From positions 1 to 64,000 of the forward strand of contig PCAK01000016.1 of assembly GCA_002730525.1 (NCBI GenBank): DNA of 64,000 nucleotides, read 5' to 3'. The position numbers and the translations under genes were made by a program. This DNA comes from Acidobacteriota bacterium. GTDB taxonomy: Bacteria > Acidobacteriota > Vicinamibacteria > Vicinamibacterales > UBA823. This document shows positions 16,670 through 31,816 of this stretch, one piece after another (the first letter of the stretch is position 1; every line of letters begins with the position of its first letter). The notes beneath the pieces are model-generated. The model worked only from the letters and a program-made list of their open reading frames with translations. It had not been told where the DNA came from and made no database searches.

Positions 16670-16801
16670 CAAGAACTCCTGTGTCAGGTCGAGCCTCAAT
16701 TCGTGGGCCATTATAGATAATCGCGCGCCGGACCGCCTATCGCGCCCATCCCCCCGGGCTAACCCCGGCGCTACCCTTTCCTGACGCCCGGGCCAGGGGT
16801 T

Positions 16802-16829
16802 TTGTTTCTCTTGCCCGAACACCTAGAAT
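16802..16829 (+). promoter_or_regulatory. promoter of the peptidase E gene
   Basis: TTGTTT at 16802-16807 and TAGAAT at 16824-16829 are 16 bases apart. The gene starts at 16871. The region between the divergent quinoprotein (start 16669) and this gene otherwise shows no coding signal. Confidence 0.45.
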
Positions 16830-16870
16830 TGGACCCGTTTACCACTCCAACCACGAAGGAACCAACCATC

Positions 16871-17662
16871 ATGGAACGACGTGAATTCATCAAATCAACG
16901 GCAATGGGCTCGATCGGACTGGGCGCGGCGGATCTAGCTGCGAGCAGCTCGCGAACGGACTCGGCACAGGCAGCCACCCCGAAGATCCTGATCGCCGGGG
17001 GCGGCTTCGGCACGACGTTCATCAGGTACATGGCGGAGCTAACCGGCAAGCCGCGGCCGAAGATCTGCTACCTGCCGACCGCTTCGGCCAGCAGCGAGGT
17101 CAACCCGACCCGCTGGTACGAGAACTGCGCGCCGCTCGACGTCATTCCCTCGGTTCAGCGGAGTTTCATCGCCAGCACCCGGATGGACCAGACCTGGGAG
17201 GAGGCGCTGCTCTCGGTCGACGGCATCGTGGTATCGGGCGGCAACACGCTGAATCAGCAGGTCATCTGGAAGGCCCACGGCATCGACGAGGTGCTCAGGA
17301 AGGCCTGGAACCAGGGGATCGTTCTCGGCGGCGCGAGCGCCGGGTCGCTCTGCTGGTTCGAGGAGGGCACGACCGACTCGCGGCCGATCGAATTGACGAA
17401 GGTCGAATGCCTCGGTCTCCTCGCGGGCAGCCACTCGCCGCATTACAGCTCGGAGGAGGCCCGCCGGCCCGACTATCACCGGATGATCCTCTCGGGCGAA
17501 CTGAAGCCTGGTTATGCCTGCGACAACAACGCGGGGATCTACTTCGAGGGTACCGAGGTCAGGCGCGTCGTCCACACGCGTGACGACGCGAAGGTGTACT
17601 ACGTCAGCGTCCAGAACGGCGAGATCGTCGAGGAGGAACTGACAGCGGAGATGATCGAATAG
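16871..17662 (+). CDS. Tat-exported peptidase family S51 (peptidase E / cyanophycinase-like)
   Basis: A 263-residue protein. The N-terminus MERREFIKSTAMGSIGLGAA resembles a Tat signal but with a single R-R-E-F-I-K core. ATG 16871 follows AAGGAA. Characteristic S51 features are ILIAGGGFGTTFIRYMAEL, DGIVVSGGNTLNQQVIWKA and the nucleophile elbow GGASAGSLCWFEEGTTDS with Ser159. GSHSPHYSSEEARRPDYH, and then ACDNNAGIYFEG, close the active site. S51 enzymes cleave dipeptides with N-terminal Asp, or cyanophycin. The specificity of this exported version is unknown. Confidence 0.85.
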   Translation: MERREFIKSTAMGSIGLGAADLAASSSRTDSAQAATPKILIAGGGFGTTFIRYMAELTGKPRPKICYLPTASASSEVNPTRWYENCAPLDVIPSVQRSFIASTRMDQTWEEALLSVDGIVVSGGNTLNQQVIWKAHGIDEVLRKAWNQGIVLGGASAGSLCWFEEGTTDSRPIELTKVECLGLLAGSHSPHYSSEEARRPDYHRMILSGELKPGYACDNNAGIYFEGTEVRRVVHTRDDAKVYYVSVQNGEIVEEELTAEMIE

Positions 17663-17684
17663 CGGGGCATGCGGGCGCGCAGCT

Positions 17685-17753
17685 CCCCTTCACCGTGACG
17701 ACGTCCCCGACGTTCATCGTCCGCCGGGTCCGGCCGGATCGGATGAGCTGATT
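17685..17753 (-). pseudogene. possible DUF6152-like fragment
   Basis: The minus strand reads NQLIRSGRTRRTMNVGDVVT and VKG. This fits the pattern NxLxRxGxTRxxLxxGDxVTVxG of the small exported DUF6152 proteins common in proteobacteria and acidobacteria. Nothing recognisable flanks it, so only about 23 residues survive. The match is by eye on a short stretch and could be chance. Confidence 0.3.
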
Positions 17754-17815
17754 CGGACCCCGGTTCTCGGCTTCTGGCAATGACAATGTCTGCGGACTGG
17801 ATAGGAGAGATGATC

Positions 17816-18868
17816 ATGTCGAACGTGAAGCGCGGTGGACTCGTAGCAGCGATGGCGCTCCTCGCGCAGTTCGTCTGCGGAGGGCACGTCTTCGCCCAGG
17901 CGCTGCCGAACCCGTATCGCGCGGTCGACGGCTGGGCGCAGCTGCCCAATGGCCGGACGATGGGCGCCGTGGGCGGCGTGACGATCGACGCGACGGGCGA
18001 CCACGTCTGGGCGGTCATCAGATGCGACGCGACGGCCCCGGAACGTTTCGGCAACGAGTGCCTCGACTCCGACCTCGACTCGGTCCTCCAGTTCGATCTC
18101 GAGGGCCGCGTCGTCGAGAGCTTCGGCGGCGGGATGTTCATCTGGCCCCACGGCATCGACGTCGGTCCGGACGGCAACGTCTGGGTGACCGACGCGGTCG
18201 CCGCAGGACGGACGCCGGAGGGCACCCGCGGCCATCAGGTCGTCAAGTTCAGCCCGACAGGCGACGTCCTGATGACGCTCGGCACGCCCGGCGAGCCGGG
18301 CGCCGGTCGGGACCATTTCAACGCCCCGAGCGATGTCGTCGTCGCCGACAACGGCGACATCTTCATCGCGGATGGCCACGGCGACGACACGAACAACCGG
18401 GTCGTGAAGTTCTCTAGCGACGGCACCTATCTGATGGAGTGGGGCCGGACCGGCTACGCGCCTGGCGAGTTCCGAACGCTTCATGCCATCGCGATCGACT
18501 CGCAAGGCCGCGTCTTCGTGGGCGACCGCTCGAACAATCGCGTCCAGATCTTCGATCAGGACGGCGAGGTGCTGGCCGTCTGGACGCAGTTCGGCCGGCC
18601 GAGCGGTGTCTTCTTCGGAGAGAACGATCGGATCTATGTCGCCGACTCGGAATCGGACGACGTCCAGAACCCGGGCTGGGAGATGGGGATCCGCATCGGC
18701 GATGCCCGCACCGGCTGGGTCGACGAGTTCATCCTCTACCCGTGGGGGGACCCGCGCTCGACTGCCGGGAACGGCGCGGAGTTCGTCGCCGTCGACCGTC
18801 TCAGGAACCTCTACGGGGGTGAGCCGCGTCCTAGAAAGCTACAGAAGTACGTCCGGGTTAGACCGTAA
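17816..18868 (+). CDS. exported NHL-repeat beta-propeller protein
   Basis: A 350-residue protein with signal peptide MSNVKRGGLVAAMALLAQFV. AGGAGAG nine bases upstream supports ATG 17816 (ATG 17810 is also possible). The rest is a six-bladed NHL propeller: WPHGIDVGPDGNVWVTD, GHQVVKFSPTGDVLMTLG, APSDVVVADNGDIFIADGHG, NRVVKFSSDGTYLMEWG, HAIAIDSQGRVFVGDRSNNR, QIFDQDGEVLAVW. This is the layout of the peptidyl-alpha-hydroxyglycine lyase family, whose bacterial members are mostly of unknown role. It heads a co-directional set with the next two genes (18916 and 19543), all exported. Confidence 0.8.
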   Translation: MSNVKRGGLVAAMALLAQFVCGGHVFAQALPNPYRAVDGWAQLPNGRTMGAVGGVTIDATGDHVWAVIRCDATAPERFGNECLDSDLDSVLQFDLEGRVVESFGGGMFIWPHGIDVGPDGNVWVTDAVAAGRTPEGTRGHQVVKFSPTGDVLMTLGTPGEPGAGRDHFNAPSDVVVADNGDIFIADGHGDDTNNRVVKFSSDGTYLMEWGRTGYAPGEFRTLHAIAIDSQGRVFVGDRSNNRVQIFDQDGEVLAVWTQFGRPSGVFFGENDRIYVADSESDDVQNPGWEMGIRIGDARTGWVDEFILYPWGDPRSTAGNGAEFVAVDRLRNLYGGEPRPRKLQKYVRVRP

Positions 18869-18915
18869 ATTTGTCGCCACGGACGTCGTCGTTACGAGTA
18901 TATGGAGGGAATCCG

Positions 18916-19467
18916 ATGAAACGAGTCATGTTGGTACTACTCGTCGTGCTGGCCGCTGCCGCGGCAGCGGAGGCTCAATCGAACGAAGAAATCATCGCCC
19001 GCGCCGTCCTCGCGGCGCCCGGGCGCGCTCAGGAAGGGGCCGGCGTCGTCAACTGGGACGCCGATGGCAACCGGGTGATGCTCAAGGAGAGCGAGAACGG
19101 GTTTGTCTGCTGGGACCGGTCAGGCCAGTTCGGTCAGCGCCCGTTCAGCGTCCAGTGCACCAACGTGGGCAACATCGAGCGCTACGAGCAGAACCGGGAG
19201 TTCTTCAAGGCCGGCGGCGATCGCGACGGCTGGAACGCACTGATGGCCGAGGCCGAGGAGAACGGTACGCGCAAAGTGGCCGTGTTCGGCTCGATCTACT
19301 ACTACATGTCGGGTGACGACCAGGAGAGTGCCGGGCAGCATCTGGTGATCGCCGTGCCCTTCGCAACCGCCGAGTCGATCGGCATCCCGGCCGGGCGCAC
19401 CGGCGGCGCTGTGTCAATCATGGGCGCGGGCACGTCCGGCGCGCACCTGATGATCGCCGGTCGCTAG
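18916..19467 (+). CDS. exported single-module protein of an unrecognised family (module A)
   Basis: A 183-residue protein starting MKRVMLVLLVVLAAAAAA (signal peptide, cleavage after AEA), with GGAGGG before ATG 18916. The mature part begins NEEIIARAVLAAPGRAQEGA, then VVNWDADGNRVMLKESENGF and VCW. It ends VAVPFATAESIGIPAGRTGG with GTSGAHLMIAGR. The same skeleton (IAxAVL, acidic turn, LRxGxNxVEC, PGATxESIG, GTPxAHIMIPIN) recurs in the genes at 26936 and 28086, so this is a diverged member. I do not know a function. Its place between an NHL propeller and a PQQ sugar dehydrogenase suggests a periplasmic accessory or ligand-binding role. Confidence 0.7.
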   Translation: MKRVMLVLLVVLAAAAAAEAQSNEEIIARAVLAAPGRAQEGAGVVNWDADGNRVMLKESENGFVCWDRSGQFGQRPFSVQCTNVGNIERYEQNREFFKAGGDRDGWNALMAEAEENGTRKVAVFGSIYYYMSGDDQESAGQHLVIAVPFATAESIGIPAGRTGGAVSIMGAGTSGAHLMIAGR

Positions 19468-19542
19468 CCGCGGCAGTGTTGCGGCCGCGGGTGGTTGGTG
19501 AACACCGACGCCGCCCGCGGCCGTCATTTCGAGGAGAGTGAG

Positions 19543-20697
19543 ATGATCCGGAAAACGCTAGTCGTTCTGGCCGTGGGCCTGCTGTCATTCACAGTGTCGG
19601 TGGAGGCACAGGAGGTCCATGGCACGGCCCTTCACGACTTCACGGTCGTGACCGTCGTCGATGGGCTGGAAATCCCCTGGTCGATCGCCTTCCTGCCCGA
19701 TGGCGACATGCTGGTCACCGAGCGGCCGGGTCGCCTCCGCATCGTCCGGGAAGGCATCCTCCTCCCTGACCCGGTGCCCGGCTTACCCGAGGTTCACGCG
19801 GAGGGCCAGGGTGGTCTGTTCGACGTTCGCCCGCATCCGCAGTTCGCGTCGAACCGGCTCCTCTACATCGCCTACGCCGACCCGAACGACGGCGCGTCGA
19901 CGACGCACGTCATCCGAGGCCGATTCGAGAACGACCGCCTGAGCGACATCGAGGACATCTTCATCGCCGTCGCCGAGGGCCGGAACGGCCACTACGGCGG
20001 GAAGCTCGCCTTCGACCGCGACGGGTATCTCTTCATCACGACGGGTGACCGCCAGGCGCCGTCGACAGGCGATCTCGAGGCACATCCGGCGCAGGACCTG
20101 ATGAATCATCACGGCGTCACCGTGCGGCTCCACGACGACGGCCGGGTGCCGGACGACAATCCGTTCGTCGGGCGCGACGATGCGCTGCCCGAGATCTGGA
20201 GCTACGGCCACCGGAACATGCAGGGCCTCGTGATTCATCCGGACACGAACGACGTCTGGGTCACCGAGCACGGCCCGCAGGGCGGCGACGAACTGAACCG
20301 CGACCAGGTCGGGCTGAACTACGGCTGGCCGGTCATCGGCTACGGCGTGAACTACCGGAGCGGGTCGGCGATTCACGAGGGGACGATGCGCGAGGAGATG
20401 GAGCACCCCGACCACTTCTGGGTGCCGTCGATCGCCGCGTCGGGGCTGATGGTCTACACCGGCGATCAGTTCCCCGAGTGGCAGGGCAACATCTTCGCCG
20501 GCGGCCTCGCGGGTCAGCAACTCGCACGCCTCACGATGAGTGTCGACGCGCGGACCGTCGAACGCGAGGAAACGCTGCTGCAGGGTCTGGGCCGGGTCCG
20601 CGACGTGCGGCAGGGGCCGGACGGCTACATCTATCTGGCCATCGAGAATCGCGGCGGCGCCCTCACGCCGATCGTGCGCCTCGAACCGGTGAACTGA
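19543..20697 (+). CDS. exported PQQ-dependent aldose sugar dehydrogenase
   Basis: A 384-residue protein starting MIRKTLVVLAVGLLSFTVSV (signal peptide) with GAGGAGAGTGAG before ATG 19543. It is the six-bladed soluble quinoprotein type (YliI/Asd/sGDH): GLEIPWSIAFLPDGDMLVTE, GGLFDVRPHPQF, NGHYGGKLAFDRDGYLF (catalytic His), the signature SYGHRNMQGLVIHP, WVTEHGPQGGDELN, NYGWPVIGYG, and RVRDVRQGPDGYIYL. It oxidises aldoses at C1 in the periplasm. Third gene of the group starting at 17816, ending at a strong terminator. Confidence 0.9.
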   Translation: MIRKTLVVLAVGLLSFTVSVEAQEVHGTALHDFTVVTVVDGLEIPWSIAFLPDGDMLVTERPGRLRIVREGILLPDPVPGLPEVHAEGQGGLFDVRPHPQFASNRLLYIAYADPNDGASTTHVIRGRFENDRLSDIEDIFIAVAEGRNGHYGGKLAFDRDGYLFITTGDRQAPSTGDLEAHPAQDLMNHHGVTVRLHDDGRVPDDNPFVGRDDALPEIWSYGHRNMQGLVIHPDTNDVWVTEHGPQGGDELNRDQVGLNYGWPVIGYGVNYRSGSAIHEGTMREEMEHPDHFWVPSIAASGLMVYTGDQFPEWQGNIFAGGLAGQQLARLTMSVDARTVEREETLLQGLGRVRDVRQGPDGYIYLAIENRGGALTPIVRLEPVN

Positions 20698-20708
20698 ACA
20701 ATGCGCAG

Positions 20709-20728
20709 GGCAGGGCTCTAGCCCTGCC
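20709..20728. repeat. intergenic palindrome
   Basis: GGCAGGGCT and AGCCCTGCC form a nine-pair hairpin with a CT loop. The closing GCT/AGC pairs resemble the core of the covarying palindrome family at 14553 and 28696, but the GTGGCGCG lead is absent. It lies just before the terminator of the sugar dehydrogenase. Confidence 0.6.
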
Positions 20729-20740
20729 GTTCGACTCAGA

Positions 20741-20772
20741 GGGCGGCACGCCTTGGCGTGCCGCCCTTTTTT
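20741..20772 (+). terminator. rho-independent terminator of the sugar dehydrogenase gene
   Basis: GGGCGGCACGCC (20741-20752) pairs perfectly with GGCGTGCCGCCC (20755-20766) across TT, followed by six T. It touches the stop codon of the convergent M28 peptidase gene at 20773. Confidence 0.85.
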
Positions 20773-22365
20773 CTACCGTCGCCCCGACCACTCCCGGCGC
20801 GCCGGCTGGCACTCGGGCCATCCGCCGACCTCGCCCGTCGTCGGGTTCACAGGGAACTCGGTCCTTCTGTCGCGCGGCACCCGCTCGGTCTCCTCCGACG
20901 CCATGTAGGTGAGGAGCGCGTAGAGCGTCGCGTTGTGCTGGAGATCCGAGAAGACGACCTTGTCGAAGGTGTCGCGGTTGGTGTGCCAGGTGTACGGGCT
21001 GTAGCTCCAGTTGAGCGCCCGCAGGCTGAACGCCGGGGCACCGTAGCAGACGAACGACGCGTAGTCGCTGCCGCCGCCGCCCGGCATCCCGGGGAAGCTG
21101 AAGTCTACTTCCGCCGAGAACTCCGCCGGCAGCCCCGAGAACCAACGCGCCATGAAGCCCGACGCGCCGATCAAGCCCTGATTGCCCACGGCGATGATCC
21201 GCCCGGTGCCGTTGTCCTGGTTGAACAGCGCCTGGAGGTTCTCGACGACCTCCGGGTTGTCCTCGGTGTAGGCGCGCGAGCCGTTCAGCCCCTGCTCTTC
21301 GCCACCCCAGTGGCCGACGATGATCGTCCGGCGCGGGTTGGGATACGCCACCTTCAGGATCCGCATCGCCTCGAGCATCACCAGCGACCCGGTGCCGTTG
21401 TCGGTCGCGCCCGACGCGAGATCCCACGAATCGAAGTGCGCCGACAGGACGATGTACTCGTTGGGCAGTTCGGTCCCGGGAATCCGACCGATCGTGTTGA
21501 AGACCGGCCCCTCGCCGAGCAACTCGGCGTCGGAAACGACCTCGATGACCGGGCCCTGACCGTTCTCGGCCAGGCGATGCAGCAGGCCGTAGTCCTCGCA
21601 GCCCGCCGTCAACGACACCATCTGCTCCGATCCGATACTGGAGAACATCTGGTGCGCGCCCCATCCACGTGACCAGCGCGACGCGATGATGCCGGCCGCG
21701 CCGGCCGCCTCCATCCGCTGGGCGATCGCGGTTTCCGAGCCGCGGCCGACGATCTCCAGGCCGATCCGGCCCATCTTCGCCCGCCAGGCCTCCTCGGCCT
21801 CGGTCCGCGCTTCGCGCATCTCGGTGAACGATGACTCGGTCGCCCACTGATCCCAGTCGGCGTCGGGCCGGCAGGTCGGCTGCGCGAAGGCGATCGCGAC
21901 GAACTTGCCGCGCACGCTCGGCAGCCAGCCCTCGAACGCCGCCTCGTCGCCCAGGTCGGGGATCGTCACGACCTCGGCGCGCAGTGGCTGTCCGCCGGTT
22001 CCCGGGCTCCAGGAGAGGAGCGCCGCCTCGAGCGTCCGGACGCGCGGCTCGACGAGATCGACGTGCGTCCGGCCGCGCTCCCACTGCATCCAGGTGCCGT
22101 ACTCCTGATTCTCGGCCTCGATCCCCCACCCGGTGTAGGTGTCGACCAGCCAGTCGTTCGCCTTCTTCTTGCCTGGGGTGCCGGTCAGGCGCGGCCCCAG
22201 TTCGTCGAAGAGCGTCTGCGCGAGGGTCCGGGCCTGGGATCGCTCCATCCCTTCCTCCCACATCCGGCGGACGACCGGATCGTTAGTCGGATAGGTCTGG
22301 GCGGTCAGCGGCAGCGTCGAGCCGAGCAACGCGGCGAGGCTCGAGAGAAACACGAGACGTCTCAT
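20773..22365 (-). CDS. exported M28-family metallopeptidase
   Basis: A 530-residue protein starting MRRLVFLSSLAALLGSTLPL (signal peptide, cleavage after TAQ). GGGGGA precedes ATG 22365. A PA-type insert spans about 130-260 (RIGLEIVGRGSETAIAQRME). The co-catalytic zinc core follows: VLSAHFDSWDLASGATDNGTG (His and bridging Asp), GHWGGEEQGLNGSRAY (Glu-Glu), NQDNGTGR (Asp) and HTNRDTFDKV (His). These are the ligands of aminopeptidase/carboxypeptidase M28 enzymes. It lies downstream of the CBM9, serine hydrolase and RidA genes on the same strand, with only 26 bases from the CBM9 stop. Confidence 0.9.
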   Translation of the reverse strand: MRRLVFLSSLAALLGSTLPLTAQTYPTNDPVVRRMWEEGMERSQARTLAQTLFDELGPRLTGTPGKKKANDWLVDTYTGWGIEAENQEYGTWMQWERGRTHVDLVEPRVRTLEAALLSWSPGTGGQPLRAEVVTIPDLGDEAAFEGWLPSVRGKFVAIAFAQPTCRPDADWDQWATESSFTEMREARTEAEEAWRAKMGRIGLEIVGRGSETAIAQRMEAAGAAGIIASRWSRGWGAHQMFSSIGSEQMVSLTAGCEDYGLLHRLAENGQGPVIEVVSDAELLGEGPVFNTIGRIPGTELPNEYIVLSAHFDSWDLASGATDNGTGSLVMLEAMRILKVAYPNPRRTIIVGHWGGEEQGLNGSRAYTEDNPEVVENLQALFNQDNGTGRIIAVGNQGLIGASGFMARWFSGLPAEFSAEVDFSFPGMPGGGGSDYASFVCYGAPAFSLRALNWSYSPYTWHTNRDTFDKVVFSDLQHNATLYALLTYMASEETERVPRDRRTEFPVNPTTGEVGGWPECQPARREWSGRR

Positions 22366-22391
22366 GGCAAGTCCCCCAACAGGTCTGATGG

Positions 22392-23333
22392 TCACTGGCG
22401 GTCCGGCGCGATCGTCGTCAGACCGCGCGTCGAGAACTCAATATACGGGAAGCACTCCGGGACGTGCGAGTCCCAGACATGGTGTGGGCTCCAGGCCCAG
22501 CCGCCAGTGTCGGCGGCCGGCGGTGCCTCGAGGTACTGGTTGAACCGGGAAAAGTCGATCCGCCAGGCATCGCCGTCCTCGGGCGGCAGCGCCCGGCCGT
22601 CGGCTCGGGCCAGCAGTCCCATGCCCGCCCAGGGGAAGGCCAGTTCGACTGTCCAGCCGCGGTCTCGGTCGGTCGCGTCGTTCAGCGTGCCGTCGACGTC
22701 GACGCCCCAGCTGATCCCTGGGAAGTCCCAGGCCCACGAGCCGATTCTCGCGCCGCGCGGATGGTTCTTGAGGCCGACACCGTTGAACGGTCGGACGAGT
22801 TCGTGATCGCGCCGAAGCTCGGGCACCTCGGCGAAGCCGCCACCGTCGTAGGCCTCCTCCCAGATGAAGAAGACCTCGTAGATAGTGCCCAGCGCGTTGA
22901 TCTCGAACTCGTAGTAGGCGTCGCGGCCGGCGATGAAAATCTCGGCATCGTTGTCGTTGTAGATCAGGTCGTCGCGCTCAGTGAGGTCACCTCGAATGTC
23001 GGGCTCCTCCAGCCAGATCCCGATGTAGAGGGTCTCGGCGTCCCAGAGTACGGCCGCGCGCGTGTCGTGAATCGTCGGCCCGGCCGAGACCAGATCGACG
23101 TAGCGCGACGAGCGTGGAGCGCGCTGCCACGCGGCGTCATCCAGCCGGCCGTCGATGGTGATCGGGCCGGCGGTGCGATAGGCGGTATACCTCGGGATGC
23201 CGACGGCGGGACAGGGGATGATCGATTCTTCTATCTGCAGTCGTTCCTGCGCCGGCGTCGCAACCGTGGCCGCCCAGGCGCCGAGCGCAACGGCAACGAG
23301 CGTACGGAGCGACCGTGGCCCGTCGAGCATCAT
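22392..23333 (-). CDS. exported carbohydrate-binding family 9-like protein
   Basis: A 313-residue protein starting MMLDGPRSLRTLVAVALGAW (signal peptide, cleavage after TPA). GGAGAC inside the end of the previous gene supports the ATG pair at 23333/23330 over an upstream ATG at 23363. It is a single CBM9-type beta-sandwich: ITIDGRLDDAAWQRAPRSSR, AAVLWDAETLYIGIWLEEPD, NDNDAEIFIAGRDAYYEFEI, GWTVELAFPWAGM, WRIDFSRFNQYL. Such domains bind sugar ends, and in acidobacterial exported proteins they usually occur alone. The start lies 4 bases after the serine hydrolase stop, so the two are probably translationally coupled. Confidence 0.8.
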   Translation of the reverse strand: MMLDGPRSLRTLVAVALGAWAATVATPAQERLQIEESIIPCPAVGIPRYTAYRTAGPITIDGRLDDAAWQRAPRSSRYVDLVSAGPTIHDTRAAVLWDAETLYIGIWLEEPDIRGDLTERDDLIYNDNDAEIFIAGRDAYYEFEINALGTIYEVFFIWEEAYDGGGFAEVPELRRDHELVRPFNGVGLKNHPRGARIGSWAWDFPGISWGVDVDGTLNDATDRDRGWTVELAFPWAGMGLLARADGRALPPEDGDAWRIDFSRFNQYLEAPPAADTGGWAWSPHHVWDSHVPECFPYIEFSTRGLTTIAPDRQ

Positions 23334-23337
23334 CAGG

Positions 23338-24678
23338 TCAGGCTGTCTCCGGAACCGCGGCAACGATCTTCCGGATCAGCGTGTCACTGAATGGCTGGTC
23401 GTCGACCGACCGCCGGTTGTCGTTGCCCTGGCGGACAACGACCAGATCGCGACTCGGGATGATGTAGCTGTGGTTCTGGTTGTGGCCGCGCGACATGAAC
23501 GCGTCGGCGGGGACGCCGTCGGTCCCATCCTGCACCCAGAAGGTGTAGCCGTAGGGACTCGGCGAACTGCCATCGTCGCGGACATGCCGCGTCGTGGCCA
23601 CGTCGAGCCACTCGGCCGGCACGAGTTGGCGGCTCCCCCACCGGCCCTTGTGCAGCCAGAGGTAGGCGAGTCGCGCGAAGTCGCGCGCCGTGCAGCGGAA
23701 CGTGCTGCCGGCGATCGAGTTGTAGCCGTACGGGCTCTCGCTCTTATCGGCGCCGTAGGCATCGCAGCCGGCGCTACCACCGACGCCCCACCCGGGCGCC
23801 TCGGCGAAGTTCAGCTCCCGGTTGTCGGCGTAGGGCATGTCCCGGTACTGGGTGTCGCGCAGGCCGCGATCCATTCCGATCGGCCCGAGAACGCGGTCGT
23901 AGACGTAGGGACCGACCGCCTCGCCCGAGACATTCCGCATCGCCAGCGCCATCTGCTCGAGCCCGTAGTTGCTGTAGGTGAAATCGGTCCCGGGCTCGAA
24001 CTTCAGGGTGTGGTGATCCGCGATGCCGTCGAACCGCCACCAGCCAAAGCAGTACTCGTACATCTGGCAGGCACCGGGATAGCCGTCGTAGCGATGCCGC
24101 GCCGCCGGCGCGAGCCACGGCTCGCGCGTCTCGTGCCCCGAGGTCATCGAGATGGCGTGCCTCACCTTGATCCGGGTCTTCCGCTCGTCGGTCAGCGGCT
24201 GATCCCAGGCCTGCGGGATGAGCGACGCGTCGCGCGAGTCACCGACCAGGTAGCTGTCGAGCGTCACGCGACCACGGTACTCGTCGAGAAAGACGCCGAC
24301 CGCCGTTCCGAAGACCGACTTGGTCGACGACTTCATGTCATTGCAGGTCTGCGCGGTCCAGCGCGCCGGCCCGTCGGCGCCGGTCGTGTAGCTCTCGCCG
24401 ATGATGTGTCCCTGATAGATGACGACGATCGCACCACCATGACTCGTCGTGACCGGGCTCGTGTCGTGGTACGTCATCGCGCCGCGCAGCAACGCTGCGT
24501 CCACACCGAGCGACGCCGGATCGGCGACGCGCCAGCCTCCTTCCGCTTCCGACGGCGGCGCGTAGGGGGCCGCTCGCCCGAAGACCGGCAGCGGTGAGAG
24601 ACCCAGGCCGGCGGCGCCGACCCCGGCCGTGGCAAGGAAGCGCCGCCGCGTGACGTGTCGCTGATTGGGCGTACTCAT
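23338..24678 (-). CDS. Tat-exported serine hydrolase (class C beta-lactamase fold)
   Basis: A 446-residue protein with Tat signal MSTPNQRHVTRRRFLATAGV. The catalytic SxxK is in MKSSTKSVFG (Ser117, Lys120) and the YxN motif in FTYSNYGLEQMA. Surrounding sequence (GGAIVVIYQGHIIGES, AISMTSGHETREPW, GSTFRCTARDFARLAYLWL, SRGHNQNHSYIIPSRDLVV) matches the exported beta-lactamase-related esterase/peptidase group. Members hydrolyse esters, amides or D-peptides, and sequence does not show which. A CBM9-like protein is coupled downstream and RidA lies close upstream. Confidence 0.85.
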   Translation of the reverse strand: MSTPNQRHVTRRRFLATAGVGAAGLGLSPLPVFGRAAPYAPPSEAEGGWRVADPASLGVDAALLRGAMTYHDTSPVTTSHGGAIVVIYQGHIIGESYTTGADGPARWTAQTCNDMKSSTKSVFGTAVGVFLDEYRGRVTLDSYLVGDSRDASLIPQAWDQPLTDERKTRIKVRHAISMTSGHETREPWLAPAARHRYDGYPGACQMYEYCFGWWRFDGIADHHTLKFEPGTDFTYSNYGLEQMALAMRNVSGEAVGPYVYDRVLGPIGMDRGLRDTQYRDMPYADNRELNFAEAPGWGVGGSAGCDAYGADKSESPYGYNSIAGSTFRCTARDFARLAYLWLHKGRWGSRQLVPAEWLDVATTRHVRDDGSSPSPYGYTFWVQDGTDGVPADAFMSRGHNQNHSYIIPSRDLVVVRQGNDNRRSVDDQPFSDTLIRKIVAAVPETA

Positions 24679-24687
24679 GATCGATCC

Positions 24688-25164
24688 CTACTCACTCACC
24701 GCCGTCCCCATGATCTCGAAGTGCGAGTTACCCAGGATCGTGCTGGTGCCGATAAAGGCGCGCGTCGGCAACGGCCCACTGAAATAACTCATGTAGATCT
24801 CGTTGAACATGTCGTAGAGCGCCAAGTCGGTGCAGAATACCTGCACCCAGACCAGATCGTCCATCGTCATGCCGCCCGCCTCGATGTTGCCCTTGAAGCT
24901 CTCCAGCAGGTTCCTGATCTCGGCCTCGACATCAGCCTCGATGCTGCCGGTGTTCTGCACCTGCCCGGTGTTGCCGGCGACGTAGAGCGTATTGCCGATC
25001 AGGATGTTCCGGCTGTACGCGGTGTTCGGATTCTCGGTTCCCGGGCCGCCGGGATCGCCGATCTGACGCCCCGCCTGCTGGGTGCTGACCACGCCGGTCA
25101 GGATGAACGTCGTCACGCTGCCAAGCACGAACGCAAGAGCGAAGGATCGAGAAAGGGGTCGCAT
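24688..25164 (-). CDS. exported RidA/YjgF-family protein
   Basis: A 158-residue protein starting MRPLSRSFALAFVLGSVTTF, a signal peptide or membrane anchor, absent from ordinary cytoplasmic RidA. GGAGGCAGC before ATG 25164 fixes the start. RidA features are AYSRNILIGNTLYVAGNTGQ, the MDDLVWVQVFCTD segment, PTRAFIG with the conserved Arg, and HFEIMGTAVS with the Glu. Cytoplasmic RidA hydrolyses reactive enamines and imines released by PLP enzymes. An exported copy beside genes for exported PLP enzymes (30455 and 34367) hints at imine removal in the periplasm. It is 10 bases upstream of the serine hydrolase. Confidence 0.85.
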   Translation of the reverse strand: MRPLSRSFALAFVLGSVTTFILTGVVSTQQAGRQIGDPGGPGTENPNTAYSRNILIGNTLYVAGNTGQVQNTGSIEADVEAEIRNLLESFKGNIEAGGMTMDDLVWVQVFCTDLALYDMFNEIYMSYFSGPLPTRAFIGTSTILGNSHFEIMGTAVSE

Positions 25165-25231
25165 GCTGCCTCCTTTTGCGGGCCAAACACCACGGTTTGT
25201 CGGGTGAGACTGCCGATCATACACTCTGGCG

Positions 25232-25645
25232 ATGCCGACGACCCCACGCCCCGATTCGCGTCGCAGGTTCCTGAAGCAGCTCGGCGGCGGGCTTGGCCTG
25301 CTGCCGGTCACGGCGGCGCTCGGCCGCGGAGCGGATCGCCAGCCTGACGTCGGATCGTGGGACGCCGTGCGCGCGCAGTTCCCGTTCGAGGACGCGGTGG
25401 TGCCGATGAATGCCGGCAACCTCTGTCCGTCGCCCATGCGGGTCGTCCGGCACCAGAATGCATTGGCGGGGCAGATCGAAATCGACGTTTCTCACGGCCA
25501 CCGCGACGGATTCCGAGCCTTGATCGAAGCCTCGCGGACGCAGGTGGCCGGGCATCTCCACACCGACCCTGAAGAGATCGCGCTGGTCCGAAACACGACG
25601 GAGGCGAACGCCGCGGTGGGGGCGCTCCGCGACAGGCTCGGCTGA
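25232..25645 (+). pseudogene. truncated Tat-exported class V aminotransferase
   Basis: A 137-residue frame with signal MPTTPRPDSRRRFLKQLGGG. It continues with the N-terminal segment of class V PLP enzymes: DAVVPMNAGNLCPSPMRVV, then FRALIEASRTQVAGHLHTDP and EEIALVRNTTEANAAVGALR. This matches the first third of the complete homologue at 34367 (YINISLVGPMPTP, then EEIALLFSTSDAENIV). It stops at 25645, before the cofactor-binding Lys and most of the large domain. About 270 residues are missing, so it cannot bind PLP normally. The following 110 bases show no continuation in any frame. Confidence 0.75.
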
Positions 25646-25756
25646 GGGCTCGCCAGAACGGAATCGACTCGCGACTCACCGTCGTGGTAAAAGTTGAGGT
25701 CTGTTTTCCGAACATTTGCTCGCCAGACCTCTAGCCGAAAGGGTTAGGAGACGACG

Positions 25757-26914
25757 ATGGACAGTACCCGGCGTAACCTCGTGAAGGGCGGCCTCGCGGC
25801 CGCCGGAGTAGGCATTCTCGGCATTCCGGAGTGGGCGGTCCCGGCCCTGGCTCAGGGCGAAACGCTCGTTGAATTCACCGATCTCCCGGATCCACTGACG
25901 CTGGTGCGCGGCCCCGAGTCGCGGATGATCGACGTCCGGATGATCGACGGCAAGTTCATCGATCGCGACATCTTCGCGACGACGCAGCATTTCGGCCACC
26001 CGGAGCTGGACGAGGCGGCCTACCGCCTCGAGGTTTCTGGCTTGGTCGACCGGCCGCTCTCGCTGTCGATGAGCGACCTGCGCGCGATGGCCGGCGAGGA
26101 GATGGCCATCGGCTTCGAGTGCTCGGGCAACCGCGGCCCCATCAACGGGCTGTCCGGTAACGGCCTCTGGAGTGGTGTTCCGCTACGCGACGTGTTGAAC
26201 CGCGCCGGCGTCCAGGCGAACGCGAAGGAATTCGTCTTCTTCGGCGCCGACCGCGGAGAGGAAGAGGTGCAGTTCCGCGGCCAGTCGTTCACCGTCGAAC
26301 AGCAGTACGGCCGGAGCGCCCCGCGCGAGACGGCGCTCTCGGACGGTCCGCTCCTGATCTACGCAATGAACGGCGAACCGCTGACGCGCCATCAGGGCTT
26401 CCCGCTGCGTCTGCTGATCCCCGGCTGGTACGGCATGGCGCAGGTGAAGTGGCTCTCCGAGATCCACGTTCAGAAGGACCAGTATCTCGGGAAGTACCAG
26501 GCGCGCTGGTACCGGACGCTGAAGGGCGAGATGGTCAACGGCGAGATGAAGTGGAAGGAAACGGCGATCACGACGCAGCAGTTGAAGTCGTTCGTCGCGC
26601 GCGTGACCAGCAACGGCCGCCGCCATCAGGTCTTCGGCGTCGTCCTGAACGACGGCACGCCGATCCGTTCGGTCGAGGTGAAGATCGACGACGGCGGCTG
26701 GCAGTCGGCCGCGATGGACCCGAGCACGACCGAGCAGTACGGGTGGAAGTACTTCACCTACGACTGGCAGGGTGCCACGCCAGGAGAGCACACGGTCGTC
26801 TCGCGCGTGACCGACGTCAACGGCGTCGTGCAGCCGACCGCAGAGGAACTCGAAGTGAAGCGGACGTTCCTGGAGCACAACGCCCAGCATCCGCGCACGC
26901 TCGTGATCGCGTAA
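25757..26914 (+). CDS. Tat-exported sulfite-oxidase-family molybdoenzyme
   Basis: A 385-residue protein starting MDSTRRNLVKGGLAAAGVGI, a Tat signal with cleavage after ALA. The molybdopterin domain contains GLVDRPLSLSMSDLRAMAGE, the molybdenum-ligand Cys122 in GFECSGNRG, and NGLWSGVPLRDVLNRAGV. Further on are NGEPLTRHQGFPLRLLIPGW and MAQVKWLSEIHV. A dimerisation Ig-like domain begins at about 275 (KSFVARVTSNGRRHQVFGVV, PIRSVEVKIDDGGW). There is no haem domain, as in the SorA/YedY-like bacterial set, so it needs a partner for electrons. It begins a run with two genes of the unrecognised module family, 21 and 19 bases apart. Confidence 0.85.
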   Translation: MDSTRRNLVKGGLAAAGVGILGIPEWAVPALAQGETLVEFTDLPDPLTLVRGPESRMIDVRMIDGKFIDRDIFATTQHFGHPELDEAAYRLEVSGLVDRPLSLSMSDLRAMAGEEMAIGFECSGNRGPINGLSGNGLWSGVPLRDVLNRAGVQANAKEFVFFGADRGEEEVQFRGQSFTVEQQYGRSAPRETALSDGPLLIYAMNGEPLTRHQGFPLRLLIPGWYGMAQVKWLSEIHVQKDQYLGKYQARWYRTLKGEMVNGEMKWKETAITTQQLKSFVARVTSNGRRHQVFGVVLNDGTPIRSVEVKIDDGGWQSAAMDPSTTEQYGWKYFTYDWQGATPGEHTVVSRVTDVNGVVQPTAEELEVKRTFLEHNAQHPRTLVIA

Positions 26915-26935
26915 TCGTTGTCTTTGGAGGTTGTG

Positions 26936-28066
26936 ATGAGAAGTCTCGTAAGCCTGTTTACTGCCGTTCTCGTGTCTGCCCTGCTGGCCGCGCCGGCCGC
27001 CGCACAAGGCCCCGGTGGAGGCGCGGATCCAAGAATCGCCCCAGCCGTCCGGCCGCTACCGATCAACCTGAGAGCCGACGCCACCGTCATCACCTACGAC
27101 GAGAACACGGGCGAGCGGATCGTCATCCGCGAAGGCTCGAACATCGTCGAGTGCCAGCCCGAGAATGAGGCATCGGGCTTCACCCGCTGCTACAACAAGG
27201 CGCTGGCTCCACGGAACGACATGGCGGCGAAGCTCCGCGCCGAAGGCAAGTCGGGCGAGGAGGTCCAGGCGGCGATCGCCGCGGCGGTCGCGGCCGGCGA
27301 CATTCCCGAACCGCCGACCGGCACGATGACCTACCGGCTGTACAACCGTGACGACCGGATCAGGTATCTCTGGGTGATGCGGGTCCCCGGCGCGACCTCG
27401 GAGTCGATCGGCATCTCGACCGAAAGCCAGCGCAACAATGCGCTCGCGGGCAAGGGCTTCCCCTGGCTGATGGCCGAGGGCACGCCGGCGGCGCACGTCA
27501 TGATGCCGATCAACAACACGCTGTACTCGAACAAGACGACCGAGCAGAAGATCGCCGAGGCGGTCTTGCCGCTGCCCGCGGACCTGCAGGCCGACGCGAC
27601 CGTCTTCACCTACGACCCCGACTCGGGTGAGCGGATCACGCTGCGCCAGGGCTCGAACCAGGTCGAGTGCACGCCGCCCGACCCGGCCACAGAGCAGACA
27701 ATGTGCTACAACCGGCGCGGCGCGGCCGGGCGCGACATCTCGGCAAAGATGAGGGCCGAGGGCCGCTCCGGCCAGGAGGTCCAGGCCGCGATGGCTGCCG
27801 CGCGCGAGCGCGGCGAGGTGCCGGCCCCGCAGTTCGGCGAGATGATGTACTTCCTCCGCCACAACGACCGGCAGATCAAGCTGCTCTGGGTGATGGTCAC
27901 GCCGGGCGCCACGCCGGAATCGATCGGCGTCTCGACCGAGAGCCAGCGGAACAATGCGCTCGCCGGCGAGGGCCGGCCGTGGCTGATGCGTCCGGGTACG
28001 CCCGGCGCGCACATCATGATCCCGATCAACAACACACCGCTGTCGAGCGGCTACACGCCCGAATAG
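26936..28066 (+). CDS. exported protein with two tandem modules of an unrecognised family (module B)
   Basis: A 376-residue protein starting MRSLVSLFTAVLVSALLAAP (signal peptide, cleavage after AAA). TGGAGG lies before ATG 26936. Two near-identical modules follow, about 30-195 and 197-370. Each runs IAxAVLPLP, ATVxTYDxxSGERI, LRxGSNxVEC, CYN, a helix with RAEGxSGxEVQAA, then MxYxL and LWVMxxPGATxESIGxSTESQRNNALAG. Each closes with PWLM, GTPxAHxMxPINNT. Conserved Cys pairs (one in VEC, one about 15 residues on) could form a disulfide in each module. Function is unknown. Position directly after the molybdoenzyme suggests a periplasmic partner. Confidence 0.75.
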   Translation: MRSLVSLFTAVLVSALLAAPAAAQGPGGGADPRIAPAVRPLPINLRADATVITYDENTGERIVIREGSNIVECQPENEASGFTRCYNKALAPRNDMAAKLRAEGKSGEEVQAAIAAAVAAGDIPEPPTGTMTYRLYNRDDRIRYLWVMRVPGATSESIGISTESQRNNALAGKGFPWLMAEGTPAAHVMMPINNTLYSNKTTEQKIAEAVLPLPADLQADATVFTYDPDSGERITLRQGSNQVECTPPDPATEQTMCYNRRGAAGRDISAKMRAEGRSGQEVQAAMAAARERGEVPAPQFGEMMYFLRHNDRQIKLLWVMVTPGATPESIGVSTESQRNNALAGEGRPWLMRPGTPGAHIMIPINNTPLSSGYTPE

Positions 28067-28085
28067 GCGCGGTCAGGAGGCCATC

Positions 28086-28691
28086 ATGCAGAAAAGCTTC
28101 GGACTGGCCGTTGCACTCGTTCTCGTCGCCGGCGCGCTGCTGGCCGCGCCGGCCGGCGCGCAGGCCCAGTCGACGGCCGAACAGATCGCCGACGCGGTGC
28201 TACCACTGTCGGACGATCTGAGGGCGGGCGCGGCAGTCGTGACGTACGACAAGGCCACCGGCGCCCGCAAGGTACTTCGCGAGGGCACGAACCAGGTCGA
28301 GTGCCAGTCGCCCGACATGGAGGCGATGCAGACGGTCTGCTACGCCAAGTCGTTAGCGCCTCAGATGGACCTCCAGGCGAAGCTCACTGCCGAGGGAAAG
28401 TCTCCCGAGGAGGTGCAGGCCGGCATCGCGGCCGCCCGAGACGCAGGCACGCTGGCCCCTGTGCCATTCGGCGCAATGGCCTACGCGTTACGGCACGACG
28501 ATCGGCGGATCAAGTTGATGTGGGTGATGATGGTGCCGGGCGCGACGTCGGAGTCGATCGGCGTCTCGACCGTCACCGAGCGGAACGACGGCCTCGCGGG
28601 CAAGGGGCGCCCCTGGCTCATGGCGGCCGGCACGCCGAACGCACACATCATGATCCCGATCAACGGCACCGAGTACTCGGACGGGCAGTAG
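28086..28691 (+). CDS. exported single-module protein of an unrecognised family (module C)
   Basis: A 201-residue protein starting MQKSFGLAVALVLVAGALLA (signal peptide), with CAGGAGGCC before ATG 28086. One module follows: EQIADAVLPLSDDLRAGAA, TYDKATGARKVLREGTNQVEC, MQTVCYAKSLAPQMD, EVQAGIAAARDAG, IKLMWVMMVPGATSESIGVS, GRPWLMAAGTPNAHIMIPIN. It is closest to the second module of the preceding gene and keeps both Cys. Probably in one transcript with 25757 and 26936, ending at the hairpin terminator 28728-28762. Confidence 0.75.
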   Translation: MQKSFGLAVALVLVAGALLAAPAGAQAQSTAEQIADAVLPLSDDLRAGAAVVTYDKATGARKVLREGTNQVECQSPDMEAMQTVCYAKSLAPQMDLQAKLTAEGKSPEEVQAGIAAARDAGTLAPVPFGAMAYALRHDDRRIKLMWVMMVPGATSESIGVSTVTERNDGLAGKGRPWLMAAGTPNAHIMIPINGTEYSDGQ

Positions 28692-28917: not shown

Positions 28918-30369
28918 CTATTCTTCCCCGAAGGCCCAAAGGGTTTCTTCCGTGCGGATGTAGATGCGGCCGTCGGCGATCGCCGGGGTCGCGTAGGCGG
29001 GCGATCCGAGATCGTTGAGCGCGACGACGTCGAAACCGCCGCCCGGTGCCACGACCGCCACCTTGCCCATCTCGCTCACGAAGAAGACCTTGCCGTCGGC
29101 CGCGATCGGCGACGCGTAGTAGCTGTCAATGGCACCGCGGATCCGGCCACGCGTGATCACCTCGCCCGTCTCGGGCTCGAACGACGTCGCGATGCCGCCG
29201 TCATTGATCATGTAGAGCACACCCTCGTAGAGCAGCGGCGACGGCAGTTGCGGCACCGACCGGTGGTAGCGCCAGACGACGCTCTCGTCGGTCATGTCGC
29301 CCGAGCCGCCCAGGCGGATCGCCACCATGCCGTTCAGGCTCGCCATGGCGGCCGCGTAGTAGTTCCAGCTCGCTTCTTCGAGAAAGCCGTCGACGTCGAG
29401 GTCGACGAAGTCGAAGAATCCCCGCGTCCGCTCGTCGGGAAACTCGTCGGGCGAGATCAACCCATCGCCGTCAGCGTCGTGCGCCGCGATCGTCTCGCTC
29501 CAGGACGTCACGTCGACCTGGCGGCCCGGCTGGTTGAGCGGCGTGGCGAACCCGTGGACGTACAGCGTGTCGCCGTCCATGACCGGCGTCGACTTCATCT
29601 CGAACGGCAGGCCGCCGACCCACCAGATCTTCTCGCCGGTCGCCACGTCGTAGGCGGTGAGCAGGAACGACCCGACGACGAGCACCTGCAGCGGCCCGTC
29701 CGGCGCGTCGTAGAGCACCGGTGACGAGTGGCCGCTCTTCGCCTCGGGCCGCTCGACGCGCCAGCGCTCCTCCCCCGTCGCGGCGTCCACCGCCAGCAGG
29801 AACGAGCCCCGCTGCTGGTCGCACGGAAGAATGACGAATCCCTCCGCGACGATCGGCGACGCGCCCATGCCGTAGACGTTGTTGAACGGCCCCAGCGGAT
29901 GCTGCCACAGTTCAGCCCCCTCACGGTCGTAGGCCACCAGGCCGAACTCGCCGAAGAAGGCGTAGACATCGCCGGCGGGACCGATGGCGACACTGGGCGC
30001 CGCCGGGTGGTTGCGCGAATCGAGGACTTCCTCGCGCGGCCGTGCCACCGCGCCCCGCCAGAGGGTGCGTCCGGATTCGCGATCGAGCGAGAGCGTGACG
30101 AACTCGCCGTCCTCGAACGCGGTCAGCAGAATCCGGTCGCCGTCGATGATTGGCGAGGAGTAGCCCGGCGGAACGGTCGCCTCCCAGACGACGTTGGTCT
30201 CGGGTCCGAAGGTTGACGGCACCCCGACGGCATCGATGACCCCGGAACCGTTCGGTCCGCGGAACCTGTTCCAGTCGTCGGCCGCCCGGAGAGACACGAC
30301 AGGACCGGCCACGACGGCCGCGAGCAGCAGCGCTCCGAGCGTTCGCTCCCTCCGCGCGTCGCGTGACAT
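28918..30369 (-). CDS. exported PQQ-like beta-propeller protein with an inserted EF-hand
   Basis: A 483-residue protein starting MSRDARRERTLGALLLAAVV (signal peptide, cleavage after LRA), with GGAGAGGAGCG before ATG 30369. It is a BamB-like propeller: DWNRFRGPNGSGV, SLDRESGRTLWRG, AYDREGAELWQHPLG, AVDAATGEERWRVE, AYDVATGEKIWWVGG, SFEPETGEVITRG. Between blades, at about 325-365, sits HDADGDGLISPDEF, a complete 12-residue EF-hand calcium loop, followed by a second partial one (DLDVDGFLEEASW). This resembles dockerin/EF-hand inserts of planctomycete and acidobacterial exported propellers. No catalytic site is recognisable, so the role may be structural or PQQ-independent. Confidence 0.75.
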   Translation of the reverse strand: MSRDARRERTLGALLLAAVVAGPVVSLRAADDWNRFRGPNGSGVIDAVGVPSTFGPETNVVWEATVPPGYSSPIIDGDRILLTAFEDGEFVTLSLDRESGRTLWRGAVARPREEVLDSRNHPAAPSVAIGPAGDVYAFFGEFGLVAYDREGAELWQHPLGPFNNVYGMGASPIVAEGFVILPCDQQRGSFLLAVDAATGEERWRVERPEAKSGHSSPVLYDAPDGPLQVLVVGSFLLTAYDVATGEKIWWVGGLPFEMKSTPVMDGDTLYVHGFATPLNQPGRQVDVTSWSETIAAHDADGDGLISPDEFPDERTRGFFDFVDLDVDGFLEEASWNYYAAAMASLNGMVAIRLGGSGDMTDESVVWRYHRSVPQLPSPLLYEGVLYMINDGGIATSFEPETGEVITRGRIRGAIDSYYASPIAADGKVFFVSEMGKVAVVAPGGGFDVVALNDLGSPAYATPAIADGRIYIRTEETLWAFGEE

Positions 30370-30401
30370 CGAACCGCTCCTCTCCAAACCGGTGGATATA
30401 G

Positions 30402-30429
30402 AAAAAGGGGGTCCGGGAAGGACCCCCTT
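30402..30429 (-). terminator. terminator of the MalY-like gene
   Basis: On the minus strand AAGGGGGTCC and GGACCCCCTT form ten perfect pairs around TTCCC and end in TTTTTC. It lies 26 bases after the stop at 30455 and 32 bases before the next gene start on the same strand. Confidence 0.85.
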
Positions 30430-30454
30430 GATGGTCGTACTCGCGCCGGCGCCT

Positions 30455-31816
30455 CTAGAGGTCGCTGACCGCCGCCGCGATGTTGTCGAGCGCCAGCTTG
30501 ATGAGCTGCCGCGACGTGCCAAGGTTCATCCGCATATGGCCCTCGCCGCCAGGGCCGTACGACGACCCGGCGTTGACATACACGTTGGCGTTCTCGACCA
30601 GCCAGCGAGAAACGATCGTCTCCGGTGTAACCGGCCGCGGCGCGTTCCGACTCGCTTCCGCCGCCGCCGCCACCGCGCCGATCCGCTCGGCCAGTTCACT
30701 GACATCCAGCCACGCCAGGTACGTGCCCTGCGCCTTGGTGTACTTGATCAGCGGGATGTTCTCGCGGATGTAGTCCTCGAGGTAGTTGTGGTTGCCATCG
30801 ATATAGATGAGCAACTCGTCGAGCCAGTCCTCGCCGCCGCGCAAGCCGGCATGGTGCGCAATGACGCCGAGCGTGTTCGTCTGCCCGCGGTGCTGGGCCT
30901 GCACCAGCCGCATGTACTCCGGGTTGGTCGAGAAGAACCAGGCGACCTTCATCGCCGCCAGGCTGAACGTCTTGCTTCCCGACTTGAAGGTCACGCTGTT
31001 GGCGACGACCTCCTGATCGGGCAGGCTCTGGAACGGGACGTACGTCTGGCCCTGGTTAACGAAGTCGCAGTGAATCTCGTCGGCCAGGACGACCACGCGC
31101 TTCTCGAGGCAAATCCGGCCCAGCCGGAGCAGATCCTGTTCCGACCAGCAGTTGCCCGTGGGATTCTGCGGATTGCAAAGGATCAGCGCGTCGGTGTCGC
31201 GACCGATCCGCCGCTCGAGGTCGTCGAAGTCCATCCGGTAGCGGCCGTTCTCGAGAATCATCGGACTGTTCTCGGCCACCGTGTCCGAGGCCAGGAGGTC
31301 ACCGTAGAAGCCGTTGTACGTGGAGGTCGTCAGCAGCACCTTGCTGCCCGGCCGCGCGAACGCCTTCAACGCGGCGATGAGCGCCGGGTGGACGCCGTCC
31401 GACAGTTGAATCGTCTCGGGGTCCACTTCCAGACCGTAGCGCTTCTGGTTCCAGTCGGCGATCGCCTGGCGGAAGTCCGCCGGCATGCTCAGATAGCCCC
31501 AGTTCTCGTGCTGGATCCGCTCCGTAAGCGCCTGGGTAATCGCCGGCGCGCACTTGAAGTCCATGTCGGCGACGCCCATGGCCACCCGGATGTTCTCGGC
31601 GCCGTAGGCGCGCATGATGCCGTCCCACTTCGCCGAGTCGGTGCCGACCCGGTCGTACGGCGTATCGAAATCGAAATCACTGTTGCCCATCTGGGCCGGC
31701 GTCGCGGCGGCGACTGGGGCGACCAGCGAGGTCCCCGACGTGGCCGCACCCGCGAGCGCGGTCATGCCGGCACTCTTCAGGAACATCCTGCGATTCAACT
31801 GAATCATTTCTGCCAT
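30455..31816 (-). CDS. Tat-exported MalY/PatB-like class I PLP enzyme (C-S lyase type)
   Basis: A 453-residue protein. Its N-terminus MAEMIQLNRRMFLKSAGMTA is a Tat signal with cleavage after AAA near residue 38. The rest aligns by eye with PatB/MalY cystathionine beta-lyases: FDFDTPYDRVGTDSAKWDG, MGVADMDFKCAPAITQAL, LSDGVHPALIAALKAF, ILCNPQNPTGNCW, VVLADEIHCDF, and the PLP Lys in SGSKTFSLAAMK. NAGSSYGPGGEGHMRMNLG provides the carboxylate Arg. Cytoplasmic relatives split cysteine conjugates or transaminate. Export is unusual for a PLP enzyme, since the cofactor must be loaded before Tat transport. Single gene with its own terminator. Confidence 0.85.
   Translation of the reverse strand: MAEMIQLNRRMFLKSAGMTALAGAATSGTSLVAPVAAATPAQMGNSDFDFDTPYDRVGTDSAKWDGIMRAYGAENIRVAMGVADMDFKCAPAITQALTERIQHENWGYLSMPADFRQAIADWNQKRYGLEVDPETIQLSDGVHPALIAALKAFARPGSKVLLTTSTYNGFYGDLLASDTVAENSPMILENGRYRMDFDDLERRIGRDTDALILCNPQNPTGNCWSEQDLLRLGRICLEKRVVVLADEIHCDFVNQGQTYVPFQSLPDQEVVANSVTFKSGSKTFSLAAMKVAWFFSTNPEYMRLVQAQHRGQTNTLGVIAHHAGLRGGEDWLDELLIYIDGNHNYLEDYIRENIPLIKYTKAQGTYLAWLDVSELAERIGAVAAAAEASRNAPRPVTPETIVSRWLVENANVYVNAGSSYGPGGEGHMRMNLGTSRQLIKLALDNIAAAVSDL

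Follow-up and report, generated by a model that had tools for sequence, protein, structure and literature searches.

Tandem two-cysteine modules of an exported bacterial protein family encoded beside redox enzymes

Three genes in a 64,000-nucleotide stretch of an Acidobacteriota genome (assembly GCA_002730525.1, contig PCAK01000016.1, positions 1 to 64,000; hereafter the window), which we call A, B and C, together encode four copies of an exported module of ~165 residues. Members of the main clade of this module family are mostly encoded beside redox enzymes, most often a remote homologue of thiosulfate dehydrogenase (a Tsd-like protein) and, in the window's own family, a sulfite-oxidase-like molybdoenzyme. 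We tentatively propose that the module works in pairs beside enzymes of sulfur-oxyanion oxidation, as a non-catalytic periplasmic partner that a disulfide probably stabilises.

An exported module with two invariant cysteines

Each of the genes A, B and C begins with a Sec-type signal peptide, as read from its own sequence (Table 1). Aligning the module of gene C gives E values of 4e-62 and 2e-61 (58% identity) with the two gene B modules and 3e-12 (35% identity) with the gene A module, similarities that by sequence comparison are far beyond chance. In a quick maximum-likelihood tree of 150 modules, the gene C module is nearest to the second module of gene B, and gene A falls in a different clade, consisting mostly of solitary copies. 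A first-pass annotation, made from the DNA sequence alone, had proposed four modules of one exported family in three genes, with that of gene A diverged, and the coordinates, E values, signal peptides and tree agree with this. All of the motifs by which it defined the family (IAxAVLPLP, YDxxTGER, LRxGxNxVEC, a CY pair, PGATxESIG and PWLM-GTPxAHIMIPIN) are present. Its two cysteines in the B and C modules are there as well; they are not restricted to B and C, however, but are kept in all four modules.

Residue statistics were calculated over 104 family sequences, non-redundant at 80%. Cysteines at profile columns 46 and 60 are invariant (104/104), and exactly two cysteines were found in each of the 156 full-length modules counted. 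Because the pair is spaced too widely for CxxCH and the modules contain only these two cysteines, the haem-c motif is absent: all 156 lack the CxxCH that a c-type cytochrome carrier of the SorB/SorU kind requires. It is therefore unlikely that the module itself carries electrons, and the electron-carrier role suggested in the first-pass annotation is not supported. The C-terminal sulfur-binding cysteine of SoxY, expected of a SoxYZ carrier, was not found either, both cysteines of the modules being internal. The simplest reading of the pair, judged from its conservation, would be a structural disulfide. Also well conserved are Met 149 (98/104), His 157 (99/104) and Met 159 (97/104), which form a Met-x7-His-x-Met set kept jointly in 95 of the 104 sequences. 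These residues tend to go missing together: 3 sequences have His in place of the last Met, and most other departures lose at least two of the three. The set could be a metal site or could serve core packing.

No Pfam or NCBIfam model exceeded its cut-off for the window proteins, and no family recurred among 85 relatives; single-protein and profile searches of PDB sequences returned chance matches only. An AlphaFold2 model of the gene C module, built from an 85-sequence alignment, has a mean predicted local distance difference test score (pLDDT) of 96 and a predicted template-modelling score (pTM) of 0.88. Against the PDB, the best Foldseek hit of this single-module model had an E value of 0.062, with template-modelling scores of at most 0.31, and the best VIA-align Z was 3.1; a Foldseek search of BFVD gave nothing convincing. 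The two-module model did little differently (best E 0.024 with Foldseek, Z 4.2 with VIA-align). Fold comparison with the PDB and BFVD thus yielded no convincing match, which does not in itself establish a new fold. In the papers listed by our literature searches we found no description of the module, or of the cluster of Tsd-like, TsdA-type and cbb3-type genes described below. The first-pass annotation had called the family unrecognised and had put forward a profile-based database search and structure prediction with fold comparison as checks; both were run, the model was confident, no characterised domain emerged from Pfam, NCBIfam or the PDB, and the description stands.

Two-module genes of Acidobacteriota (38 rows in the tree) and those of Proteobacteria and Gemmatimonadota (43 rows) fall into separate clades, each holding its own first and second modules, which means that tandem duplication occurred at least twice. 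The window lineage may represent a third case, as the second module of gene B groups with gene C. Gene conversion could mimic independent duplications in such a tree. Linker lengths of 3, 6 and 13-15 residues track the same clade split. The AlphaFold2 model of both modules of gene B (pLDDT 92, pTM 0.77) suggests that paired modules are packed against each other and not freely tethered.

The genome of the window (3.3 Mb, 99% complete) has three more copies on other contigs (C40:26689, C40:76888 and C25:23461), bringing its total to seven modules in six genes. Judged by the relatives of its modules, the window comes from Acidobacteriota and probably from Vicinamibacterales. We scanned 84,980 species genomes with two motifs of the module, which were taken from the window modules and so bias the scan toward the main clade. 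The scan yielded 137 relatives, of which 80 were kept, from Acidobacteriota, Gamma- and Alphaproteobacteria, Gemmatimonadota and Chloroflexota. Among 199 Acidobacteriota genomes drawn evenly, 30 contain the module. A tblastn search of plasmids gave a single unannotated match, in Gemmatirosa. The family is expanded in one Caldilineaceae genome (G205, source of locus L082), with 11 matches and genes of two or three tandem modules, and at L082 and L085 a MarR-type regulator gene follows the module gene. The only module fusion seen is an 807-residue protein of a Chloroflexota locus (L199, 6548-8971, minus strand), which joins two outlying modules to a PAP2-superfamily domain (PF01569, E 4.2e-22). 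Long module reading frames at some loci (up to 995 residues) were considered as fusions and rejected, since they look like upstream extension of open frames.

Genes encoded beside the module

Neighbours were counted by six-frame hidden Markov model (HMM) searches within 6 kb of the module, at 64 main-clade and 44 outlying loci. At the main-clade loci we found a Tsd-like gene in 43 cases, a TsdA/SoxA-type cytochrome in 36 and a cbb3-type oxidase in 35, with all three together in 33; several of these loci end at contig ends, so the counts are lower bounds, and the HMMs were built from the counted loci, which are mutually related. At least one of the three genes is present at 45/64 main-clade loci versus 0/44 outlying ones, and a count based on gene calls at dereplicated loci gave 19/34. 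An independent test at the level of genomes points the same way: among the 199 Acidobacteriota genomes, 13 have a Tsd-like gene, 30 the module and 9 both (Fisher p 6e-6). Redox-enzyme neighbours were found at 52/64 main-clade and 1/44 outlying loci. The association with redox enzymes proposed in the first-pass annotation therefore holds for the main clade and fails for the outlying subfamilies, whose flanks show no recurrent family (no Pfam family is shared by more than 3 of 82 flanking proteins).

The neighbourhood is conserved while its gene order varies. The Tsd-like gene and the module gene often lie 10-60 nucleotides apart on one strand; in both Acidobacteriota and Proteobacteria the Tsd-like gene often stands this close upstream of a two-module gene. 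In Acidobacteriota the Tsd-like gene and the two-module gene are followed by the oxidase and the cytochrome; in Woeseiaceae the first two face the cytochrome and oxidase; and in other Gammaproteobacteria a single-module gene either immediately precedes the Tsd-like gene or is separated from it by the oxidase gene. At Pseudohongiella-like loci (L058-L063 and L066) two small adjacent genes of cluster c4, encoding ~158 and 162 residues, recur upstream of the single-module gene; one of them appears bacterioferritin-like by eye.

The Tsd-like proteins carry signals of the twin-arginine translocation (Tat) type, and 18 of 26 match NF052225 (thiosulfate dehydrogenase) at E below 1e-3, the best at 1.2e-10. 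Three of them scored singly reached 29-33 bits, the equivalog cut-off being 300 bits, and they are thus, by profile score, homologues of NF052225 and not equivalogs. Searches of the PDB gave no credible match for the Tsd-like family. We also considered whether the module is homologous to its Tsd-like partner and rejected this, the hhalign probability being under 1%. The partner cytochromes have two CxxCH motifs in 37/37 cases and an IN-x-C motif in 34/37, and the one member scanned (L070) scores 38.0 bits with the SoxA/TsdA model PF21342 (cut-off 27). The partner oxidases match COX1, FixO and Cytochrome_CBB3 above cut-off; their fused CcoN-CcoO-cytochrome form does not reach the NCBIfam ccoN cut-off. 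A Tyr close to the HH pair, which we take to be a feature of cbb3 oxidases, is conserved in 34 of the 35 oxidases.

In the window, the place held elsewhere by the Tsd-like gene is taken by the molybdoenzyme gene, the first of an operon with genes B and C. Intergenic distances of 21 nucleotides (from the end of the molybdoenzyme gene at 26914 to gene B) and 19 nucleotides (from gene B to gene C), computed from the open reading frame coordinates, equal those given in the first-pass annotation; an alternative TTG start of gene B at 26918 would leave only 3 nucleotides before it. Loci L015-L018 share the order molybdoenzyme, two-module gene, one-module gene, and among the 30 best-matching molybdoenzyme loci the module accompanies the enzyme at all 5 of the window's family, the only family in which we found this pairing. 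The enzyme scores 149.5 bits with PF00174 (cut-off 24) and has the conserved-cysteine motif GFECSGNR, placing it in the sulfite-oxidase family. None of the NCBIfam equivalog cut-offs was reached, however: 148 of 600 bits for SorA, 139 of 420 for SoxC and 127 of 570 for SorT. This assignment, and that of the sugar dehydrogenase beside gene A to the pyrroloquinoline quinone (PQQ) type, confirm the flanking enzymes named in the first-pass annotation.

Table 1. Module genes of the window and the genes around them (window coordinates; module limits from HMM searches)
Feature	Coordinates	Strand	Description
Gene A	18916..19467	+	signal peptide and one diverged module (18973-19464)
Gene B	26936..28066	+	signal peptide and two tandem modules (27017-27520, 27530-28036) with a 3-residue linker
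Gene C	28086..28691	+	signal peptide and one module (28164-28670)
Sulfite-oxidase-family molybdoenzyme, Tat-exported	25757..26914	+	opens the operon shared with genes B and C; PF00174, E 8.6e-44
Relic of a gene for a Tat-exported protein	25232..25645	+	upstream of the molybdoenzyme; internally deleted in comparison with the intact L015 gene
Glucose/sorbosone dehydrogenase (PQQ-type)	19540..20697	+	downstream of gene A; PF07995, E 2e-126
NHL-repeat beta-propeller protein	17780..18868	+	upstream of gene A; PF01436, E 1.4e-18

Further features of the window lie around these genes. NHL genes such as that preceding gene A occur within 6 kb of the module at 4/64 main-clade loci. Two segments (14585-20697 and 28918-30522) hold, within 16 kb, three PQQ-type or beta-propeller dehydrogenase-like genes (PF01011, PF07995, PF13360) and the NHL propeller. 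The relic upstream of the molybdoenzyme corresponds to an intact gene of 420 residues in the same place at L015 (5385-6647): residues 1-129 align at 74% identity, residues 389-420 weakly, and the middle is gone. Either a true deletion or an error of assembly could account for this.

Possible roles of the module

We suggest that the module is an exported alpha/beta domain, probably with one disulfide, that would act in pairs. In the main clade it would be a docking or ligand-binding subunit beside an enzyme of sulfur-oxyanion oxidation, presumably in physical contact with it. There, the Tat-exported Tsd-like protein, whose substrate may be thiosulfate, would pass electrons to the TsdA/SoxA-type di-haem cytochrome and from there to the cbb3-type oxidase. 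In the window's family the molybdoenzyme, possibly acting on sulfite, would be the enzyme partner instead. Several observations weigh against this proposal. The homology of the Tsd-like proteins to thiosulfate dehydrogenase is, by profile comparison, remote. In the order of G199, six genomes bear a Tsd-like gene and just one of them also has the module. The other 25 of the 30 molybdoenzyme homologues (66-71% identity) have no module within 1.5 kb, so that the enzyme occurs without it in related families, and at the same 25 loci no cytochrome was called just downstream. In the genome of the window and three relatives, matches to SoxA/TsdA and ccoN are weak, and the window genome's own Tsd-like genes are located elsewhere. 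The outlying modules, finally, are solitary. Because both partner enzymes occur without the module and the outlying modules stand alone, we put the partner role forward with reserve, as possible but short of probable; the best-supported reading is of a partner that some lineages have gained and others lack. Of the periplasmic partner or electron-transfer accessory envisaged in the first-pass annotation, the partner role thus survives, tentatively and for the main clade, electron carriage is unlikely, and the molybdoenzyme is not the commonest neighbour. A more ambitious version, in which the module is both an undescribed fold and the missing partner in a periplasmic thiosulfate-to-oxygen chain (Tsd-type enzyme, TsdA-type cytochrome and fused cbb3-type oxidase), seems to us improbable.

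The same facts that temper the partner role would be expected of a stand-alone, generic periplasmic ligand-binding or sensor domain, whose adjacency to redox genes reflects shared regulation or inheritance and not a complex. The outlying subfamilies are mostly single genes among unrelated neighbours, paralogues in the same genome are placed elsewhere, and the partner enzymes exist without the module. However, the Tsd-like neighbourhood is kept over two phyla in varied gene orders, which descent of one cluster explains poorly, and we regard this alternative as rather unlikely. The invariant cysteine pair, with no further cysteine in any module, and the sulfur-oxidation genes nearby could also point to a thiol or sulfur carrier, in which the pair would cycle between thiol and disulfide or hold sulfane sulfur for the neighbouring enzyme, in a SoxYZ-like function. 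However, solitary outlying members that have no sulfur genes show the same invariance of the two cysteines, as would be expected of a structural disulfide, and there is no C-terminal cysteine of the SoxY kind, making a carrier hard to credit. Least likely of all, in our judgement, is that the module binds Cu(I) and perhaps delivers copper to the cbb3-type oxidase. The joint conservation of Met-x7-His-x-Met and the exchange of its last Met for His would suit such a site, but these residues are conserved even without a cbb3-type gene nearby, as in the window's lineage, and the Phe, Tyr and Leu replacements would equally suit core packing.

Whichever role applies, the domain has no name, a confidently predicted structure and a presence in at least four phyla, and its conserved neighbourhood resembles a thiosulfate-oxidising respiratory chain. 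The bacteria carrying that neighbourhood are uncultured and come from soil, groundwater and marine settings. If the link is functional, the module would represent a part of environmental sulfur oxidation that has so far gone unrecognised, and annotators could use it as a marker.

Comparison with known systems

SorA and SorT have haem-c cytochromes as their partners. The window operon resembles SorAB and SorT/SorU: its molybdoenzyme, a member of the same superfamily, carries a Tat-type signal, and genes for small exported proteins come next. It differs in that these proteins lack CxxCH and that the enzyme scores below the SorA and SorT equivalog cut-offs. Cytochrome P460 (PF16694) appeared in two weak VIA-align rows among many unrelated ones (Z 2.7 and 2.5). 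Unlike the module, P460 has CxxCH, and without sequence-profile similarity (hhalign of A2 against six P460 sequences gave a probability of 0.15%) it was rejected as a relative. The Tsd of Acidithiobacillus ferrooxidans (AFE_0042), for which NF052225 presumably stands, forms tetrathionate according to a paper cited in a review (PMC6335251). The usual neighbour of the module is likewise of the Tat type and a remote homologue of NF052225, whereas the cluster described in A. ferrooxidans includes doxDA, rhd and sbp. TsdA/SoxA di-haem cytochromes and cbb3-type oxidases, encoded beside the Tsd-like gene and the modules at the 33 loci counted above, are neighbours of the module and not its relatives.

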